Positions 8,600 to 24,080 of a stretch of DNA of 33,207 nucleotides are shown here, piece after piece (the stretch's first letter is position 1; the number at the start of each line of letters is the position of its first letter). A program made the position numbers and the translations under genes. The notes below the pieces were generated by a model, which was not told the origin of the DNA, did no database searches, and was given only the letters and a program-made list of their open reading frames with translations. Origin of the DNA: Oceanospirillum linum (GTDB lineage Bacteria > Pseudomonadota > Gammaproteobacteria > Pseudomonadales > Halomonadaceae); contig NZ_MTSD02000011.1 in assembly GCF_001995095.2 (NCBI RefSeq), positions 1 through 33,207 on the forward strand, written 5' to 3'.

Positions 8600-9928
8600 T
8601 CAGAAAGATTCTTCAAAGCTCAGTTGTAACCCCAAACGACGGGGTATGCTATTGCCATCAACTTCAGCCGTATCCAAACCGTAGGTCAGATCAAAATTAG
8701 CAACGCCGCGGAATAGCCCCATGCCAAAGTTAACGGCAGATAGCTCTTCACCGCTAAGGTTTTTCTCATAGCCCAGGCGCAGTGTCGGTACAACAGCACT
8801 GGATGGAAAGTAAACACCGGAGACATGCAGCATCTGCACCTCATCGCCCACCAGATCATCAACTTTATTCAGATCCGCACTGGCGGCCAGCATCAATGCG
8901 CGCTCTTTCAGAAAAACAGCACCATCCACTGTACCTTGGGTTTCCAGGGTTACGCCACCATCCAGGGAGATCTCACTGCTGAACGCCTGAGCATCAGCAC
9001 TGTCCTGCAGGGAACCATATTTCAGCTCCGGGCTATTGATGTTTTTCACCGCAAAGCCCAACTGATAGTTTTCAGCCAACCAAACAGCCCCCAGATCAAC
9101 ACCCAGAGCAGAACTGTCTTTGGCATTATCATCTAATCCATCGGAGATCAGATCGCCCACGTCTTCATCATCATCACGATCAACGGCAGCCACTTCCTGA
9201 CTCAGGGATGCAGAGTACAGATTTGCTTTTGCCCCCAGGACTAACTGACCGGCCAGCCCTCCAATGGAGTTCAGACCGGATACAGGCTGGCTATAACCCA
9301 GCCCAAGCTGAAACAGAGCACCGCCCCGCACAAAAACAGCGGAATCTGTCTTCAGGTCATAGTCACTCAGATCTCCGGTTCCCACCTTCTGCAGCGGTGC
9401 ATCAAGAAAGCTCACCGCCGATATCGCAGACACAGACGCATCCACACTGATCACCCCAGGCAGATCACCCACCTGAAAAACAGCGGGTAATCCGGGTACC
9501 GCGACAGAAAAAGCGGTTTTAATACGCCCACTGTCACCAAACTCCTTCAGCACAGAACTGAAGTCATCCAGAATCACATCCGCCGCCGCATCCGCCTCAG
9601 CAATGGAGGTGTACCGCCCGGCCATCAGATCATCATCAAAATCATCAAGGGCATCCATAAAGCGATCAACTTCATCCTCAAAGTTGTCTGCTTCACCAAA
9701 CTCAACACTGCCGCCGATCTGTGACAGATAGCCCAGACGCACCGACTCCTCTTCTGTATCCAGCACCAGATATCCCGCCGCCGGATTATAAAGAACGCTA
9801 TTCACCGTTGTCGGAGAGGCGACCTGCCCCAGAGTCGTTGCCGCCCCATAATTTCCCACAATAGCCGCAGAAAAGGCCGGGGCAGACAAAGCCAGAGTCA
9901 CCGCAGCCGTTAAGATATTTTTTTTCAT
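8600..9928 (-). CDS. TraF-family (TraF_2) outer-membrane beta-barrel protein
   Basis: 442-aa protein with a clear signal peptide (MKKNILTAAVTLALSAPAFSA). Its N-terminal region has NSVLYNPAAGYLV, as in FadL-like and conjugal-transfer-TraF-like barrels (Pfam TraF_2). Alternating hydrophobic strands run through residues 200-442, ending in LSFEESF with the C-terminal Phe typical of Bam-inserted outer-membrane proteins. A strongly acidic stretch (DRFMDALDDFDDDL and others) lies near residues 85-105. These chromosomal 'TraF' proteins are not evidence of conjugation, and their function is poorly known. The start is set by an AAGGGA site 7 nt before the ATG. It is a single-gene unit with its own terminator. 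Possible roles are uptake of a hydrophobic compound or envelope structure. Confidence 0.8.
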   Translation of the reverse strand: MKKNILTAAVTLALSAPAFSAAIVGNYGAATTLGQVASPTTVNSVLYNPAAGYLVLDTEEESVRLGYLSQIGGSVEFGEADNFEDEVDRFMDALDDFDDDLMAGRYTSIAEADAAADVILDDFSSVLKEFGDSGRIKTAFSVAVPGLPAVFQVGDLPGVISVDASVSAISAVSFLDAPLQKVGTGDLSDYDLKTDSAVFVRGGALFQLGLGYSQPVSGLNSIGGLAGQLVLGAKANLYSASLSQEVAAVDRDDDEDVGDLISDGLDDNAKDSSALGVDLGAVWLAENYQLGFAVKNINSPELKYGSLQDSADAQAFSSEISLDGGVTLETQGTVDGAVFLKERALMLAASADLNKVDDLVGDEVQMLHVSGVYFPSSAVVPTLRLGYEKNLSGEELSAVNFGMGLFRGVANFDLTYGLDTAEVDGNSIPRRLGLQLSFEESF

Positions 9929-9971
9929 GGTATGTCCCTTGAGTTGAACATGGTGTGTCCTTTGGGTTGAA
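9925..9971 (-). repeat. 23-bp tandem duplication of the ribosome site and start region, with 8-codon leader ORF
   Basis: Two adjacent 23-bp copies (9926-9948 and 9949-9971, about 4 mismatches) each contain a purine-rich ribosome site followed by CC-ATG. The upstream ATG at 9951 opens an 8-residue frame (MFNSRDIP) whose TGA overlaps the ATG of the outer-membrane gene. Translation of the main gene could therefore be coupled to a leader peptide. Confidence 0.7.
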
Positions 9972-10110
9972 TTAGCCTGTGGGCGTGAGCCATAGGGCGT
10001 TTCATCTGAAATAGTACAGATTAAGCACCCCGTGATAAACGGAACCAACGTATAAAAAACACCTTTTCGAGCAATACACTGCCCTCAGACTCAAGGTACA
10101 TAGAGATCCA

Positions 10111-11730: not shown

Positions 11731-13065
11731 TTACAGCGCCTGCCCCCGACCAATCGCGGAATAAACCAGCCCGGCCTGTGCCGCCAACCGGGGTGAATAA
11801 ATATTACGGCCATCCAGCAACAAAGGCGTATTCATCATGGATGCAATTCGGGCAAGATCCTGATTCCAGAACAGTTTCCACTCCGTAATCAGCATAATGG
11901 CATCCGCTTTTTCAGCGGCCTGCTCCGGGCTGTCACAATAAATCACCTGATCAGCCCTGCAGGTCTGGCCTGCCTGTTCCGCCTGACGCTCAAGCCAGAC
12001 CTTCAGCGAACCCATCGCCATAGGATCATAAACCCTGACGGTTACCCCATGACTCAGCAAAGCCTGTAACAGCACCAAAGAAGGGCTACCGGCAATACTG
12101 CTGGTGTTCGGTTTAAAGGCACAGCCCCAAAACGCCACCGACCGCCCCTTAATATCGGCATTGAAATAACGCCAGAACTTCTGAAACAGAAGGTCTTTCT
12201 GCTGCTCATTAATCTGCTGGACACTACTCAGCAACCCCTGATCAATCCCCTGGCTATGCTCCGTCGCCTGCAGCTCCTGCCCGAGAAAATTCAGAGTATC
12301 GTTAAACGCTTCACCACCGAAACCACAGCCCGGATAAAGATACTGATGACCAATGCGGGGGTCAGCCCCTAACCCCAGACGGACAGACTCAATATCCACA
12401 CCCTGACGGGCCGCCAGATCCGCCAACTCATTCATAAAGCTGATCCGGGTGGCCAACATGCCATTGATACCAATTTTGGTCAGCTCTGCCTCCTTGGACG
12501 TCATCACCATCGCCGCATCTTTACTGCGATTAAACGGCGACATCAGTTCACGTATCAGAGCGACACCGGCAGCATCTTCACTGGCACCAATCAACAGGCG
12601 ACCGGAGCGGGTAAAGCTCTCCAGAGCGCGCCCTGCTTCAATAAAAGAGGGCCAGTACAAGCACTCCACCCGCTTATCACCAATGGCCTCAATCAGTAAG
12701 TCCTGCAATCTATCTGTCGTGCCCACCGCCACAGGTTGAACCAAAGCATAAACAGAGCGACTTCCTGCAGATAAACCCTGAGCAAAATCCTGCAACACAG
12801 GAAAGCGTTGTTCCGAGGTCAGATTTGTCCGCGCATCAATCAGCAGATGATAGACCCGATCAAACACATTATCCGGCCCCGGAATCAGTAATAGCCGCTC
12901 CTGCCGGTACTGCTCCTGCAGTAAGCGCAGCAGATCCAGCTCGGCAATCTCACCGGACTCATCCGGCAACCGGTCTGCCGACATCACCACCTGACAACCT
13001 GTGGAAGAGAGCGCGCCAGCCATGGTCCAGGCTGCCAGGCTGTCACCTAAAATTCGTATGTTCAT
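11731..13065 (-). CDS. Degenerate UDP-glucose/GDP-mannose dehydrogenase paralogue (likely pseudoenzyme)
   Basis: 444-aa protein of the UDP-Glc/GDP-Man dehydrogenase fold whose catalytic and cofactor sites have decayed. The N-terminal Rossmann loop, normally GxGYVG, reads ILGDSLAAW. The motif SPEF reads WPSF, so the catalytic Glu becomes Ser140. The active-site GGSCFPKD-type motif reads GFGGEAFNDT, so the nucleophilic Cys becomes Ala253 and the PKD Lys is lost. In contrast, the substrate-side Lys197/Asn201 pair, GADPRIGHQYLYPGCGFGG, the C-terminal UDP-sugar domain (CAFKPNTSSIAGSPSL), TEWKLFW and DGRNIYSP are kept. The frame is long and open, so it is under selection rather than a decaying gene. 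It could bind a UDP-sugar as a regulator or scaffold. Oxidation activity is unlikely. Confidence 0.85.
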   Translation of the reverse strand: MNIRILGDSLAAWTMAGALSSTGCQVVMSADRLPDESGEIAELDLLRLLQEQYRQERLLLIPGPDNVFDRVYHLLIDARTNLTSEQRFPVLQDFAQGLSAGSRSVYALVQPVAVGTTDRLQDLLIEAIGDKRVECLYWPSFIEAGRALESFTRSGRLLIGASEDAAGVALIRELMSPFNRSKDAAMVMTSKEAELTKIGINGMLATRISFMNELADLAARQGVDIESVRLGLGADPRIGHQYLYPGCGFGGEAFNDTLNFLGQELQATEHSQGIDQGLLSSVQQINEQQKDLLFQKFWRYFNADIKGRSVAFWGCAFKPNTSSIAGSPSLVLLQALLSHGVTVRVYDPMAMGSLKVWLERQAEQAGQTCRADQVIYCDSPEQAAEKADAIMLITEWKLFWNQDLARIASMMNTPLLLDGRNIYSPRLAAQAGLVYSAIGRGQAL

Positions 13066-19698: not shown

Positions 19699-19729
19699 TA
19701 AAAAAGAGAGACACACTGGCCTCTCCTTA
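19699..19729 (-). terminator. Intrinsic terminator of the FecR/Slam-like operon
   Basis: The minus strand has an AAGGAGAG / CTCTCTTT stem (one G-T pair) with a 10-nt loop, followed by a further T run and ATAA. It lies about 30 nt after the stop of the C-terminal cargo frame and upstream of galU. A second small stem, ACCG / CGGT, lies at 19682-19694. Confidence 0.55.
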
Positions 19730-19759: not shown

Positions 19760-21178
19760 TTAGCGCTCAAAAACAGCAACACCTTTACCATCAATACCCA
19801 GTGTTTCAATCATCAGCATCGCCCCTTCAGCCTCCGTCCCGGCAAAACGCCCGCTAATAAAACCTCCTGACAGTGCAGGGGGAATAGAAACGGTCGTCAG
19901 GCTGATGCCATTAAAACCATTAATATCAGGTAAAGGCAAAGAGTTAGCCTCCAGGGCACCATCAGTACCAAAATCCAAATAAATACTCATATAACTGCTC
20001 GTAAAATCCAGCTCAAGACTGCTTGACGAGTCCAGAGTCATAACAGGGCTTCCCATGGCATCGTAGATATCACCACCAGCTGCCAACTGAAAGTTCACAG
20101 AAGGGCTGCCCGTCAGGGTTTGTAGATCATGAATATCGTTGAGAATCGGTGCCTGCGCAGTAAACATATAAGGGAGCGGACCAATATCAGCCTTTGTGAT
20201 ATGAACCAGGCTGGGGTCCAGATCATCAATATCATAATCGGCCTCCTGCCAGATCCCCCAAAATACATCGCTGCCATCCGGCAATGTATAACTGGAAGGA
20301 GGGCTTTGTATCCCCTGACTAGTCAAGCGGATCGCCATAACATCGCTGCCTAATGACAGGGATGTTTCGATGGACTCTGCCCCTGCAATATCACAGGGTA
20401 TCAGGCAACCAACAGACTTAATGTCATAATTCAGACCACTTGCATTGTTGAAACCTGCCAACCCAAAGTACTGAGAAGGGCCGGGTTGTCCGGGAGATGT
20501 AAAGCTACTATCCATCCCCATCAAAGCCACGCCAACCTCCCCGGACAGGCTCAAGGTGGGAATTTCCCCGTAAACTACACCGAACATACCATCAACCACT
20601 GAGCCGTCGCCGGAGAAGCCACCCACAAAATAACCACTGGCCCCAATCTCAGGACTGGACTCAGAATAATAAAACCCGGAAAGATCCATACCCGACGCCG
20701 TAAAATCCCCGACACTTACCCCGGTATGGTTCATAAGGTGCATAGTGTCAGAATCAGTCCCCTCAAAGAAGACCTCACTGCGCAGCAACATATCCATCGT
20801 ATCTAAACTGATACGCATATCATACAGCTTTAAACCATTCATAACCGGCTGTACCCCACTGGTATCAGCAGCCAATACAAACTCGTAAAAACCGCCTATT
20901 GCCGCAGAACTCATCAAAGACTCCAGCTCAAAGGCGTCATCCAGTACCGAATCACTGGCCGCATAGACAAGAGAGCCCAGAGGTGATCCCTGGCTGATCA
21001 TTGTATCCCGGTCAAGATAGAGAAACTCACTTTCAGGCCAGACACCCAGGTAGGTTTTGCTGTTGGTATCCGGGTGCACTTGCACCAGATGCATCTGGTT
21101 AGCCACGGAGGTATTCAGCATCCGCCGCTGAAGCCTCAGGCCGCTATCAAGATTAGCCCCACCAGAACCGGCACAACC
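19760..21178 (-). pseudogene. C-terminal TbpB-like portion of the frameshifted FecR-domain surface protein
   Basis: This frame has no signal peptide. It reads back without a stop past its first ATG (21121) to a TGA at 21179-21181. The residues before that ATG (GANLDSGLRLQRR) look like real protein, so this is the second half of the gene at 21136-22632 in another frame. It has roughly 450 residues and is rich in Gly, Ser and Asp. Repeated beta-strand patterns are visible (GYFVGGFSGDGSVVDGMFGVVYGE; VFWGIWQE). It ends in GGFISGRFAGTEAEGAMLMIET...VAVFER, which resembles the last strands of the TbpB-type/Slam-cargo beta-barrel. Function is inferred from this resemblance and from the neighbouring transporter, not from a recognised full-length homologue. 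Confidence 0.65.
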
Positions 21179-22632
21179 TCACCGGAGGTATCCGTAAAAC
21201 TTTCCCACTGGGTTTCTGCTCCGTCAAAGCTCAAAACAGAGCCCGCAGTCCCTGCAAACAAAAGACCTTTTTGCGTCACAGAGCCGATAGGGTTTTCTCC
21301 CCCTGACAAGATACGCGCACAGGAGTCATAACCCAGCAGAGTACAACGGGAGTCAATCTGCTCCGCCAGTTCTTTTTCTGCACAGGAGGCATAACCCGCA
21401 CTCTGACAAATCGTCTCCTCAGCCGAAGACTCCTCTTTAGCCTGACAGGAGGTGTAACCTTCCGCCTGACACGCCGACTCCGCCAGTAAGAATGCCTCTT
21501 TTGCCTGGCAGGAGGTATAACCTTCCGCCCGACAGGCCGCCTCCGTCAGCAGATGGAACTCTTTAGCCGAGCAGGATGTATAACCTTCAGCCCGACAGGC
21601 TGCCTCTGTCAGCAAATGAAATTCTTTCGCCGAACAGGAAGCAAAGCCCTCATTTCGGCACTGCAGTTCAGCCAGTTCTTTAGCTTCTTTATCAGCACAG
21701 GAAATAAAGCCCTCTTCGCGGCAGGCAGCTTCAACAAAATCCAGATCACCTTCCTCTTCTTTTTTAAGCTGCTGCTCCTGAACCTCAGGATTCTGAAGAT
21801 GGTTTTCTCCTACCCCTAAACCAGGCACCGGGTTTGCCGGGCCTCTGCGGGGCTCACCCTGCTCACCATTGCCGGGGGGAGCATCCGGGCCTGGGCCACC
21901 CGGAGCCGTATTAAAGATGGCAGCATCTGCCGGAAAAGCCTCCGGCGGCGTATCAGGGCTGTACATCGCCAGAGCCTGACCGGCGCGAATCACACGGGTT
22001 CCGGTTGTTGTTGCCGCAGCAGCCCCCTGTTCAACCATCAGGTATGAACCTGAGCGTGTACCGGAAGGCAGGTCAGTCGTTCCCTCTGTAAAGTGCAGCA
22101 GACGAATAATGGTACCCCGGATACCGATGGTCGCCACCGGCGTTCTGAAACTGACGTTTTCCGGTTTACGGTGGCCTATGGCACCGGTAATAGAGCGCAA
22201 GCCACCGCGGACAATATCTGTTTTCTGAAAAGAGGCATCGGCATTATCCGTAAAGGTATACTCTGAGATCGTTATCTCTGAATTCGGTTTAACCGCCAGC
22301 GTACCGCCATCGGTAAAACGGAGCTGCACGCTACTGGCAGAAGCGGTGACCAGACGATCACCCTGAAAAACACTCGCTCCCCGCCGGGCGGGCTTGCTCT
22401 TCCCCTCCTGCTCATGCACCACAGTACCGTGCACAAACATCAGCTGCCCGGCTTTTTCTTTTTGCCCAGTGCCGTCCCCTTGCCCCGAGCTCTCCCCTTG
22501 CCCAGAGCCCTCTGCAGCTCTAACCGACAGGGGCAAAAGCAAAACCAGCAACAGAACAAAAGCTGCACGCAAAACCCAGGTGTTAAACGAGGCAGAGTGC
22601 CACTTGCCTGCTGTCGAAACGAATCTGTTCAT
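21136..22632 (-). CDS. FecR-domain secreted protein with seven Cys repeats (N-terminal part, frameshifted)
   Basis: 498-aa frame starting at the ATG giving MNRFVSTAGKWHS, 14 nt after the transporter stop. A signal peptide (core LRAAFVLLLVLLLPLSVRA) is followed by a Gly/Ser/Gln-rich linker. A FecR-type domain spans about residues 85-180 (FQGDRLVTASASSVQLRF; SEITISEYTF; RTPVATIGIRGT). A Pro/Gly-rich stretch follows, then seven 21-residue Cys repeats at 301-447. The frame then ends at VGLILIAA*, whereas the shifted frame continues as GANLDSGLRLQRR into the downstream frame. Adding one G to the G4 run at 21157-21160 would give a single 957-aa protein. FecR domains in exported proteins of this kind do not indicate iron-sigma control. 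Confidence 0.75.
   Translation of the reverse strand: MNRFVSTAGKWHSASFNTWVLRAAFVLLLVLLLPLSVRAAEGSGQGESSGQGDGTGQKEKAGQLMFVHGTVVHEQEGKSKPARRGASVFQGDRLVTASASSVQLRFTDGGTLAVKPNSEITISEYTFTDNADASFQKTDIVRGGLRSITGAIGHRKPENVSFRTPVATIGIRGTIIRLLHFTEGTTDLPSGTRSGSYLMVEQGAAAATTTGTRVIRAGQALAMYSPDTPPEAFPADAAIFNTAPGGPGPDAPPGNGEQGEPRRGPANPVPGLGVGENHLQNPEVQEQQLKKEEEGDLDFVEAACREEGFISCADKEAKELAELQCRNEGFASCSAKEFHLLTEAACRAEGYTSCSAKEFHLLTEAACRAEGYTSCQAKEAFLLAESACQAEGYTSCQAKEESSAEETICQSAGYASCAEKELAEQIDSRCTLLGYDSCARILSGGENPIGSVTQKGLLFAGTAGSVLSFDGAETQWESFTDTSGEVVPVLVGLILIAA
21292..21732 (-). repeat. Seven 21-residue (63-bp) Cys-containing coding repeats
   Basis: Seven consecutive in-frame units with the pattern C-x3-G-[Y/F]-x-S-C-x2-K-E for most copies, each with two Cys separated by seven residues. 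Units 2-5 are most alike (CRAEGYTSCSAKEFHLLTEA type); units 1, 6 and 7 are more diverged, and unit 7 lacks the KE. This is coding repetition, not a CRISPR: there are no unique spacers. Confidence 0.9.
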
Positions 22633-22645
22633 CACTCTCTGCCTC

Positions 22646-23710
22646 TCAGCGCCACGAATAAGCCACATTGATATTCGTAATAACCTGATCAAAATTAAAA
22701 AAATCAATGCTTGAGTTCTGCTTGCGGTATTCTGCCCCGGTCGTCACATACCAATCGGGTTCAGGAATCCAGGTCAGAGCTGCCGTACCGGAAAAAACAT
22801 CATCCTCCCGGGAAGCATCTGACCATTGGTTATAAAAGCCAAACCCCCGCGTATCATAAACAAGCCGCTGATATGACACGCCCAGTTGCAGATTCAACCG
22901 GTTACTCAGCCGGTTATCCGCCTTAAACTGCAAACGCCCACGCCAGGCATCGCCACCGTCCCGCCGGTCATCAGCAAACTCCCGCTCTAAAGCAGAAGCC
23001 CCCTGCAACAGCCAGCTCGCAACCGGAACCGACAACGCCGCCTCCGCCTTTAATGCAGCATAGTCGTTATTTGAAGCCTCGGTATAAGCCGCCTTCTTCA
23101 GGGACAGCCCTGTGGAAAGATAACTCTCCGTCAACACAGGCTGCTCAACTCCTGCCCTCAACACCAGCAGATCAAAAAGCGGCTCCAGCGGCTGTTCAGT
23201 AAATACACGCCCCACACTAGCCTGGGTGATCACAAAGTGATCCGTCAGCCATTTATAGCGCCATATACCATTGGCCTGCAGAGCGGTCACCGAATACGGC
23301 TGCAGCTCAGTTTCCGTATAAAGCCGACTCTGGGCCCCTGCTGTAAACTGAAGGGTATGACGATCATCAACAGGAAACAGCCCGGTATACTGTGCATTAA
23401 GATCAGAAAAATAACCGGACTCATCACTGATCCGGGTCTGAAAAAGTCCGCCAAAAAGATCCAGCTGATAATCAGAGGGCGCGCCATTCACATTCGAATC
23501 AAAGCCCAGGCCAGCCCCCAACAGGAAACGATGGGAAGGCTCGGTTTTTTTTCTGTTCTGCTCTGCTATCTGCTCCCGGTATTTACGGATCAGCTCCGCA
23601 GCTTTCGCCGGAGGCTCCAGAGTCTGCAGCAAAGCAAATTCTTTATCTGCGGCACTGAACTGCCCCAACTGAGTCATAGCGATAGCCCGCTCAAGCCGCC
23701 CCCCCCGCAT
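22646..23710 (-). pseudogene. Slam/DUF560-like outer-membrane transporter, barrel portion (frameshifted)
   Basis: The main part of a TPR plus beta-barrel outer-membrane protein. From the frameshift onward it reads RLERAIAMTQLGQFSAADKEFALL, completing the TPR begun in the upstream fragment. It then gives FLLGAGLGFDSNVNGAPSDYQ and about 14 amphipathic strands, ending in NINVAYSWR. The phrase GLGFDSNVN and the TPR-barrel order resemble the surface lipoprotein assembly modifier (Slam, DUF560, type XI secretion) family, which moves cargo across the outer membrane. The internal ATG at 23710 (MRGGRLER) directly abuts the G8 run but would give a product without a signal peptide. Other TPR-linked barrels are possible alternatives. 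Confidence 0.65.
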
Positions 23711-24080
23711 GATCAGGCTGTACCTGCAGCAAACGATCCAGCACAAAAATCCCCACCGATGGCTGACCAGACCTGACCGCCGCCAGCCCCATAAGATAGT
23801 CAAATTCAGGCACCCCGGCATACTCCGCCTCCGCCGCAGACAAAAGCGTCAGAGCCGCAGCAGTATCTCCCTCAGACAGTACCTGTTGCGCCCCACGCAA
23901 AACATCAGCCAGCGGGGCAGGTTTTTCAGCCAAGGAGTTTACCTCATCCGCCAGGGCATCCGTTGCACTGATCATAAGAACGCAAACCAACAAAAACGCC
24001 TGTACCATACAGAAAGACAACCAGGCAGCAGCACACTCAGTGCTTTTTCCCCGACCCATAGCAGACTCCGGCTCAATCAC
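23691..24080 (-). pseudogene. Slam/DUF560-like transporter, signal peptide and TPR portion (frameshifted)
   Basis: 129-aa frame with a signal peptide (core VQAFLLVCVLMISATDALA) and the start of a TPR domain (AAALTLLSAAEAEYAGVPEFDYLMGLAAVRSGQPSVGIFVLDRLLQVQPDHAGG). It then runs into a stop four codons after the G8 run. Removing one G joins QPDHAGG to RLERAIAM, the usual TPR continuation, and gives one 477-aa protein with the 22646 frame. The start is GTG at 24080 (AGAGGA site 8 nt upstream) or ATG at 24059 (CGGAG 6 nt upstream). The reading frame can be switched by a one-base change in the G run. Confidence 0.7.

Follow-up and report, generated by a model that had tools for sequence, protein, structure and literature searches.

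In the 33,207 nucleotide stretch of Oceanospirillum linum analyzed here (contig NZ_MTSD02000011.1, positions 1 to 33,207; hereafter the window), two adjacent genes on the minus strand, spanning 24080 to 19760, resemble an exporter of the type XI secretion system (Slam/DUF560, SlipAM) and its cargo. The first gene encodes a protein with tetratricopeptide repeats (TPR) at the N-terminus and a beta-barrel at the C-terminus; TPR_19 (PF14559) matches its 5' piece with E=3.5e-4, under Pfam's cut-off. The second gene, encoding the putative cargo, begins with an ATG at 22632, 13 nt after the stop codon of the barrel gene (22646-22648). In its product a leader is followed by a FecR domain, matched by PF04773 with E=2.4e-7 and 31.6 bits (cut-off 24), and by seven cysteine repeats. 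An earlier note on this DNA had described this arrangement of a TPR plus barrel gene followed by an exported FecR and Cys-repeat protein, and its anatomy was confirmed by the open reading frames (ORFs), the PF04773 match and a scan for repeats. The leader, as that note had also stated, reads as one of the signal peptidase I (SPI) type without a lipobox.

In the window each of the two genes is read as two pieces in different frames (Table 1); these pieces were analyzed separately and the frames were left unmended. For comparison we used the corresponding locus of O. maris, taken from a genus relative (G056) that is identical to O. maris DSM 6286 over the 9604 bases compared. There, TPR part and barrel form a single ORF of 462 residues; behind it stand two cargo ORFs in tandem, 1005 and 1006 residues long, the first of which is partly N. 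Since O. maris has single open frames, each member of the pair represents one real gene. Between the window and O. maris, identity amounts to 49% for the barrel piece and to 38-39% for the cargo.

Table 1. Features of the exporter-cargo pair and of related long cargo genes. Positions refer to the window unless a locus is named.
Feature	Position	Strand	Basis
Slam-like (DUF560-type) putative outer-membrane protein, 5' piece: leader and TPR part	23691..24080	-	ORF; TPR_19; barrel-family profiles match too
Same protein, 3' piece in another frame: beta-barrel part, homologous from about 23710 on	22646..23821	-	ORF; O. maris identity; SlipAM in family; profile comparison
C8/G8 run at the frame change of the barrel gene	23699..23706	.	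only C/G run of at least 8 in the window
N-terminal piece of the cargo: leader of the SPI type, beta domain resembling FecR/retention domains, linker rich in Pro and Gly, then the seven Cys repeats at about 21319-21723	21136..22632	-	PF04773; PDB 5ix9 by profile and fold; AlphaFold2 model; repeats
DNA tandem array inside the Cys-repeat region, period 63, 3.3 copies	21433..21639	-	tandem-repeat finding
Cargo, C-terminal piece in another frame from 21121 on: two predicted TbpB-like lobes	19760..21121	-	AlphaFold2; Foldseek
Hairpin with U run just 3' of the cargo stop, possible intrinsic terminator	19703..19728	-	predicted fold
Long multi-lobe cargo	L191:3644-9061; L192:1187-8818; L192:10942-17874; L189:4100-9997		lobe profile, weak matches omitted

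The pair is more than a chance neighbourhood because it recurs in other genomes. Of the 274 genomes searched within the class, 50 (the own genome among them) were matched by a profile built from the barrels of O. maris and the window. In 38 of a first set of 41 loci (40 from two genome searches, one with PF04575 and one with the barrel profile, and that of O. maris), the barrel gene is directly followed by a FecR ORF (-250 to +400 nt). The exceptions are O. maris itself (L004), where the first cargo is partly N and the second is intact with FecR, one locus with the FecR gene upstream of the barrel (L059) and one at a contig end (L079). In a second set, the best 80 of 135 relatives found with a 7-row barrel alignment, 74 have a FecR domain whose start lies no more than 900 nt downstream; apart from three loci without FecR (L124, L170 and L171), the exceptions are two contig ends (L103 and L160) and the O. 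maris locus (L096). The two sets overlap, as seen for the cargo pairs L067/L135, L060/L101 and L084/L164 with the same length and shown ends, and their counts are therefore not independent. According to the record titles, the 80 loci belong mostly to Gammaproteobacteria and Betaproteobacteria, many of them metagenome-assembled genomes (MAGs); L171 stems from an Erythrobacter MAG. All six Oceanospirillum genomes drawn contain a barrel with a FecR neighbour. Among 20 loci picked by PF04575 score alone, FecR was found within the fetched flanks in 14, all of them among the lower 15, and the five strongest PF04575 loci had no FecR in the fetched flanks. Within the family, the barrel-family profile matched 102 of 201 genomes, many of these matches covering the TPR region only and not being counted as barrels.

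The C-terminal part of the cargo was modelled with AlphaFold2 from an alignment of the window piece and 21 rows from named loci. For the 453-residue piece of the window, two beta-rich lobes were obtained (mean predicted local distance difference test, pLDDT, 81.4; predicted template modelling score, pTM, 0.54). A Foldseek search of the PDB with this model gave 31 matches with E<=0.001, all of them TbpB, LbpB or hemophilin (including the hemophilin 7rea), where in complexes of TbpA and TbpB chain B was taken as TbpB by its length. HphA, HpuA and NHBA appear in the next ranks, mixed with porins and others at a probability of about 0.1-0.4. The TM-scores for the whole model are low (0.24-0.31), because the orientation of the lobes differs or is uncertain at a pTM of 0.54. 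As one comparison for specificity, the second beta-containing model, that of the FecR piece, gave other best matches. At the sequence level, the NCBIfam model slam_lipo ('Slam-dependent surface lipoprotein') matched 4 of 29 cargo proteins at E<=0.01 (best 2.4e-6), and at one strong SlipAM locus (L010) a profile of the lobe matched the neighbouring cargo-like ORF with 6.7e-6. The same profile matched 83 of the 101 FecR ORFs that are complete; each time the match ends no more than 60 residues from the C-terminus, and 67 of these ORFs have one lobe and 16 have several. A scan of the genome contigs with the single C-terminus of the window found no relative. From the model, the cargo C-terminus is predicted to have a TbpB-like fold arranged in two lobes.

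Longer arrays of such lobes were seen in the Oceanospirillum group, where FecR cargo proteins of 1805-2543 residues (G028, G044 and G067) contain five to seven clear tandem lobe matches; G067 has two exporter-cargo pairs in succession.

The barrel protein was compared with known exporters as a family of 60 aligned sequences: the window piece and 59 sequences of named loci, among them O. maris. PF04575 (SlipAM) matched 42 of these 60 at E<=0.001, and TPR_Slam matched 9. Against an alignment of five strong-SlipAM proteins, a profile of the barrel part of the family reached E=9.4e-34 over 287 columns; against the five taken one by one, the probability was 42-99%. As controls, four proteins from the same loci, one TraF_2 by Pfam and three presumed, unchecked barrels (two of them close kin), reached at most 3.6% probability over at most 38 columns. 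Furthermore, the 41 loci of the first set together with the window piece give 42 barrels, all of which are linked by BLASTP at E<=1e-6; five barrels each reach all 42, and the window piece reaches 8 including itself. In PDB sequence searches, the Slam-like barrels gave TPR matches among the matches listed (60 of 83), and a strong SlipAM protein gave no match. Judged from these profile comparisons, the barrel family appears homologous to Slam/DUF560/SlipAM, with the window barrel as a probable divergent relative, and the lack of kinship to DUF560 that would have spoken against a Slam-like pair was not borne out.

These data also bear on the idea that the TPR and barrel protein is a polysaccharide exporter of the BcsC, PgaA or EpsL sort belonging to a capsule or exopolysaccharide (EPS) cluster, with the FecR protein as an unrelated neighbour. 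The surrounding window is indeed a polysaccharide (capsule/EPS) locus, and EpsL and BcsC of NCBIfam matched 31 and 33 of the 60 barrels, respectively, BcsC having TPRs too and the EpsL score of O. maris being 28 bits against a cut-off of 275; BBP2_2 matched 24/60. However, SlipAM is the commonest non-TPR Pfam match among the 60 barrels, the partner protein is TbpB-like in its model, and among the loci listed the barrel-FecR pair is kept in differing neighbourhoods, so that we regard a polysaccharide exporter as very improbable.

A second Slam-like barrel is encoded in the own genome (L186:1513-3048, G000:C220), adjoining a CHASE2/cyclase gene (L186:3660-5873, by Pfam), and a look-alike of this neighbour stands at the same place in O. 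maris (L187) and in G028 (L188). About 11 kb from the second barrel, on the same contig, lies a gene for a FecR protein with a lobe match of 1.8e-4 (L201:1195-2901).

At the other end of the cargo, a FecR match by Pfam was present in all 29 proteins scanned. The FecR and Cys-repeat piece of the window was modelled with AlphaFold2 (mean pLDDT 72), and Foldseek against the PDB returned a single match with E<=0.001, 5ix9, described as a 'cell surface anchoring domain' (target TM-score, TMt, 0.82 over 75 columns). A profile of the FecR part alone, compared with PDB sequences, gave the same 5ix9 chain, there named an antifreeze protein, as its sole match (E=5.4e-6). We take 5ix9 to be the anchoring domain of Marinomonas primoryensis. 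Among NCBIfam models, NF033682 (retention_LapA, 'retention module-containing protein') matched 23 of the 29 cargo proteins at E<=0.01 and the window piece with 8.2e-8 (32.5 bits against a cut-off of 50). With PHROGs, the FecR part matched one family of unknown function. A lipobox-like string within the first 60 residues was found in 2 of 98 cargo proteins longer than 300 residues, and these two (L067 and L135) are the same sequence. A membrane-anchoring domain of such kind was first described in the M. primoryensis adhesin, and the retention module of Lap-type adhesins sits in the periplasm until cleavage by LapG (PMC13090378). As a side observation, LysM occurs besides FecR in 2 of the 29 cargo proteins, and L085 reads like one.

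The FecR match could also place the pair in cell-surface signalling, where the FecR protein would be a regulator in the envelope, as in FecI-FecR, with the barrel acting as its sensor in the outer membrane. Besides PF04773 itself, anti-sigma factors occur among the weaker fold matches of the FecR/Cys model (E 0.02-0.17; FecR-type structures are 4m0n at E=0.02 and 6ovk at E=0.13), followed by fHbp and TbpB at E 0.4 and worse. CHASE2/cyclase profile matches are found in the flanks of 12/41 and 13/80 loci, and a Lysobacter neighbourhood is reported to unite a sigma factor, a FecR regulator, a TonB-dependent transporter, a TbpB-like protein and Slam (PMC11233812). In that gene group the FecR regulator is a separate gene accompanying the TbpB-like and Slam proteins, unlike the pair described here. 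In the window, by contrast, a leader peptide opens the cargo and neither sequence nor model shows a cytoplasmic domain at the N-terminus, its C-terminus is TbpB-like in the prediction, and neither a sigma factor nor a TonB receptor is present among the scanned neighbours. A signalling pair thus appears improbable, if slightly less so than the polysaccharide exporter.

Between the two ends of the window cargo, seven CX7C units follow one another at an exact spacing of 21 residues. The model places one 16-residue helix in each repeat, with the CX7C across the turn and a pLDDT of about 90 in the repeat helices; disulfides within the CX7C units could staple these into a rod. When a profile containing the Cys repeats was compared with the PDB, it matched repeat regions of entries named Toxin A, Hemorrhagic toxin and Cell wall-binding repeat protein, and these matches were gone once the repeats were left out. 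We read them as repeat periodicity and rejected them, because in the three alignments shown the best independent E of any one stretch was 0.78. The Cys repeats had been proposed as part of an unusual modular cargo, and they are indeed present in the window and in both O. maris proteins. As these are the only 3 of 115 sequences to have them, they are not a general feature of the cargo.

Overall, we consider it likely that the two genes form one type XI (Slam/DUF560)-like export unit, with recognition of the lobes and perhaps anchoring by the FecR domain. Of its parts, the export pair as such is held with somewhat greater confidence, and anchoring of the N-terminus by the FecR domain is put forward as a tentative proposal. 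For export, its direction and lobe recognition we infer a path in which the TPR and barrel protein would reside in the outer membrane with its TPR part toward the periplasm. The cargo would cross the inner membrane via Sec by means of its ordinary, non-lipoprotein leader and be held by a periplasmic chaperone before its passage through the barrel; its C-terminal TbpB-like lobes would be recognised and the cargo would be passed through the barrel. Sec export, holding by a chaperone and barrel passage are proposed because of the known biochemistry of Slam, where Slam1 moves TbpB across the membrane in proteoliposomes (PMC9090332), and because a non-lipidated cargo is secreted by a DUF560 protein (PMC8406197). 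As the cargo has no lipid anchor, its N-terminus may instead be held by the FecR/retention-like domain, either at the outer membrane or beneath it. Outside, the rod of Cys repeats would then be displayed together with the two lobes, and the combination of tandem lobes and rod suggests a surface protein with a binding or adhesive role.

A number of results weigh against this explanation. On the side of the exporter, neither the window barrel piece nor the O. maris barrel matches PF04575 at E<=1. In the own genome PF04575 was not found by a search that matched 27 of 274 genomes, nor by an earlier search, in which the control genomes were silent too. When compared alone with the five-protein SlipAM set, the window barrel reaches 21.7% probability (O. 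maris alone 56.6%). As the window protein misses PF04575, we term it a Slam-like divergent branch and not a Pfam-defined member. The type XI-like secretion pair proposed in the earlier note is upheld by the TbpB-like model, the SlipAM-homologous family and the wide co-occurrence (the survey of neighbourhoods described above bears it out), but not by a PF04575 match of the window barrel itself. On the side of the cargo, TbpB_B_D of Pfam matched 0 of 29 proteins at E<=0.01, and therefore the likeness to TbpB rests on the fold and the weaker sequence links. The TbpB or Slam-cargo character claimed for the C-terminus accordingly stands for its fold, with a two-lobed model and TbpB-type structures at the top of the Foldseek list, but not by Pfam. 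In addition, nothing was found when the lobe alignment was compared by profile with four cargo-like ORFs next to strong SlipAM loci, that of L010 included, the lobe was undetected in 18 of the 101 complete FecR ORFs (ten of these shorter than 320 residues), and the window C-terminus as a single query found only 2 of 201 family genomes, its own and O. maris. With respect to anchoring, FecR and retention domains share a fold, and retention_LapA stays under the 50-bit cut-off among the scores listed. An exported FecR-only protein of the own genome (L200) matches retention_LapA too, and a retention-module match alone is therefore no proof of anchoring. The LapG protease (PF06035) was absent from the own genome at E<=0.001, with a positive Caulobacter control. 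With respect to the pairing, 3 of the 80 loci have a barrel without a FecR neighbour, and no FecR was seen in the 8 kb read around the second barrel of the own genome. Finally, both genes of the pair are frame-broken in the window.

The breaks, one per gene, lie at the C8/G8 run in the barrel gene and near 21136-21160 in the cargo gene, and O. maris encodes the same residues without a G8-type run. Because of them, the annotated copy may be off, decayed or mis-sequenced in the sequenced cells. The pair of the window may accordingly consist of decaying pseudogenes, or both breaks may be assembly errors, with the biology confined to the relatives. Consistent with this, each gene has its own break, none was noticed in 18 other long ORFs of the window scanned with Pfam (one without any match), and one contig of the same genome holds both the second Slam-like barrel and the second lobe-matching FecR protein. 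On the other hand, long frames are open on either side of each break and can be aligned with O. maris at the identities given above, so that any decay would be recent. G8 runs are classic sites of reversible slippage, which makes the run in the barrel gene a potential site of this kind. We consider it a serious possibility, though the lesser one, that the window pair is decayed or misassembled; the breaks may stem from an assembly error, from recent decay or from slippage at the G8 run.

Among known systems, the type XI system (Slam/DUF560/SlipAM, PF04575) is the closest to the export unit proposed here: in both, a TPR and barrel protein adjoins a Sec-exported protein with one or several C-terminal TbpB-like lobes, and the barrel families are homologous by profile. 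Its known cargo includes TbpB, LbpB, HpuA and hemophilins (PMC8406197). The window barrel differs by its divergence to below the Pfam threshold, and the window cargo by being non-lipidated, by its FecR/retention-like start, by its Cys-repeat rod and by its tandem lobes, of which up to seven are matched by profile in the Oceanospirillum group. Hemophilin/HrpC, a soluble cargo of TXISS-1B, shares the SPI leader, the TbpB-like barrel and the DUF560 partner; it differs in having a single TbpBBD and no annotated handle domain, and FecR or repeat modules are not mentioned for it in the available part of the source (PMC8406197). The retention domain of RTX adhesins of the LapA/MpIBP type is matched by the N-terminal beta domain of the cargo through 5ix9 and, below cut-off, NF033682. 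LapA, however, is a substrate of type I secretion, and LapG releases it (PMC13090378), whereas the partner in the present pair is Slam-like and no match to LapG was found in the genome. With FecR anti-sigma regulators the cargo shares the PF04773 domain; unlike these, it has a leader, no cytoplasmic domain and a fusion to repeats and TbpB-like lobes.

In the open-access literature we found no FecR cargo described for Slam/DUF560/T11SS/SlipAM systems, and 'FecR' has no occurrence in the main text of a 2025 cargo survey (PMC12282271), nor is any listed for the 2021 paper (PMC8406197). These findings point to a branch of a known secretion system with a type of cargo that we did not find described there. 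In 2021, nine of ten T11SS clusters consisted mostly of water and soil organisms and contained no characterised proteins (PMC8406197), and the 2025 survey seeks the cargo of clusters 1 and 3 (PMC12282271). Proteins with FecR and TbpB-like lobes beside Slam-like barrels, encoded in many beta- and gammaproteobacteria, are candidates for the cargo of some uncharacterised DUF560 clusters. If the FecR domain anchors, surface proteins of the type XI system would need no lipid, and the role of a non-lipidated cargo that is not a haemophore would become testable in marine bacteria. A more far-reaching picture, which we regard as unlikely, is that of a lipid-free Slam-type surface fibre: a periplasmic FecR plug would replace the lipid, a CX7C-stapled rod of 21-residue helices would cross or leave the outer membrane, two lobes (elsewhere up to seven) would be displayed, and slippage at the G8 run would switch the display. 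If true, such a fibre would combine the principle of type XI secretion with the way in which giant RTX adhesins are retained, and would supply the cargo of some uncharacterised environmental DUF560 clusters.

The cargo gene had also been described as closed by a terminator. RNA folding predicts a hairpin of 10 base pairs with a U6 at its 3' end past the cargo stop, which makes an intrinsic terminator possible. Taken as a whole, the stretch is no more stable than its shuffles (z -0.83), and the hairpin is absent from a consensus terminator scan.

Some of the CHASE2/cyclase profile matches in the flanks of the other loci perhaps cover the cyclase domain only; that at L197:5337-7553 is CHASE2 by Pfam. 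With the home-made profile, no CHASE2/cyclase match was found in the window. Other scanned neighbours of the pair include a beta-CASP hydrolase by Pfam and a UDP-sugar dehydrogenase at 11734-13065, whose frame is intact and whose N-domain is not matched by Pfam. A TraF_2-type protein is encoded at 8600-10048 of the window and is also found downstream of the pair in O. maris (L004:9542-10900).

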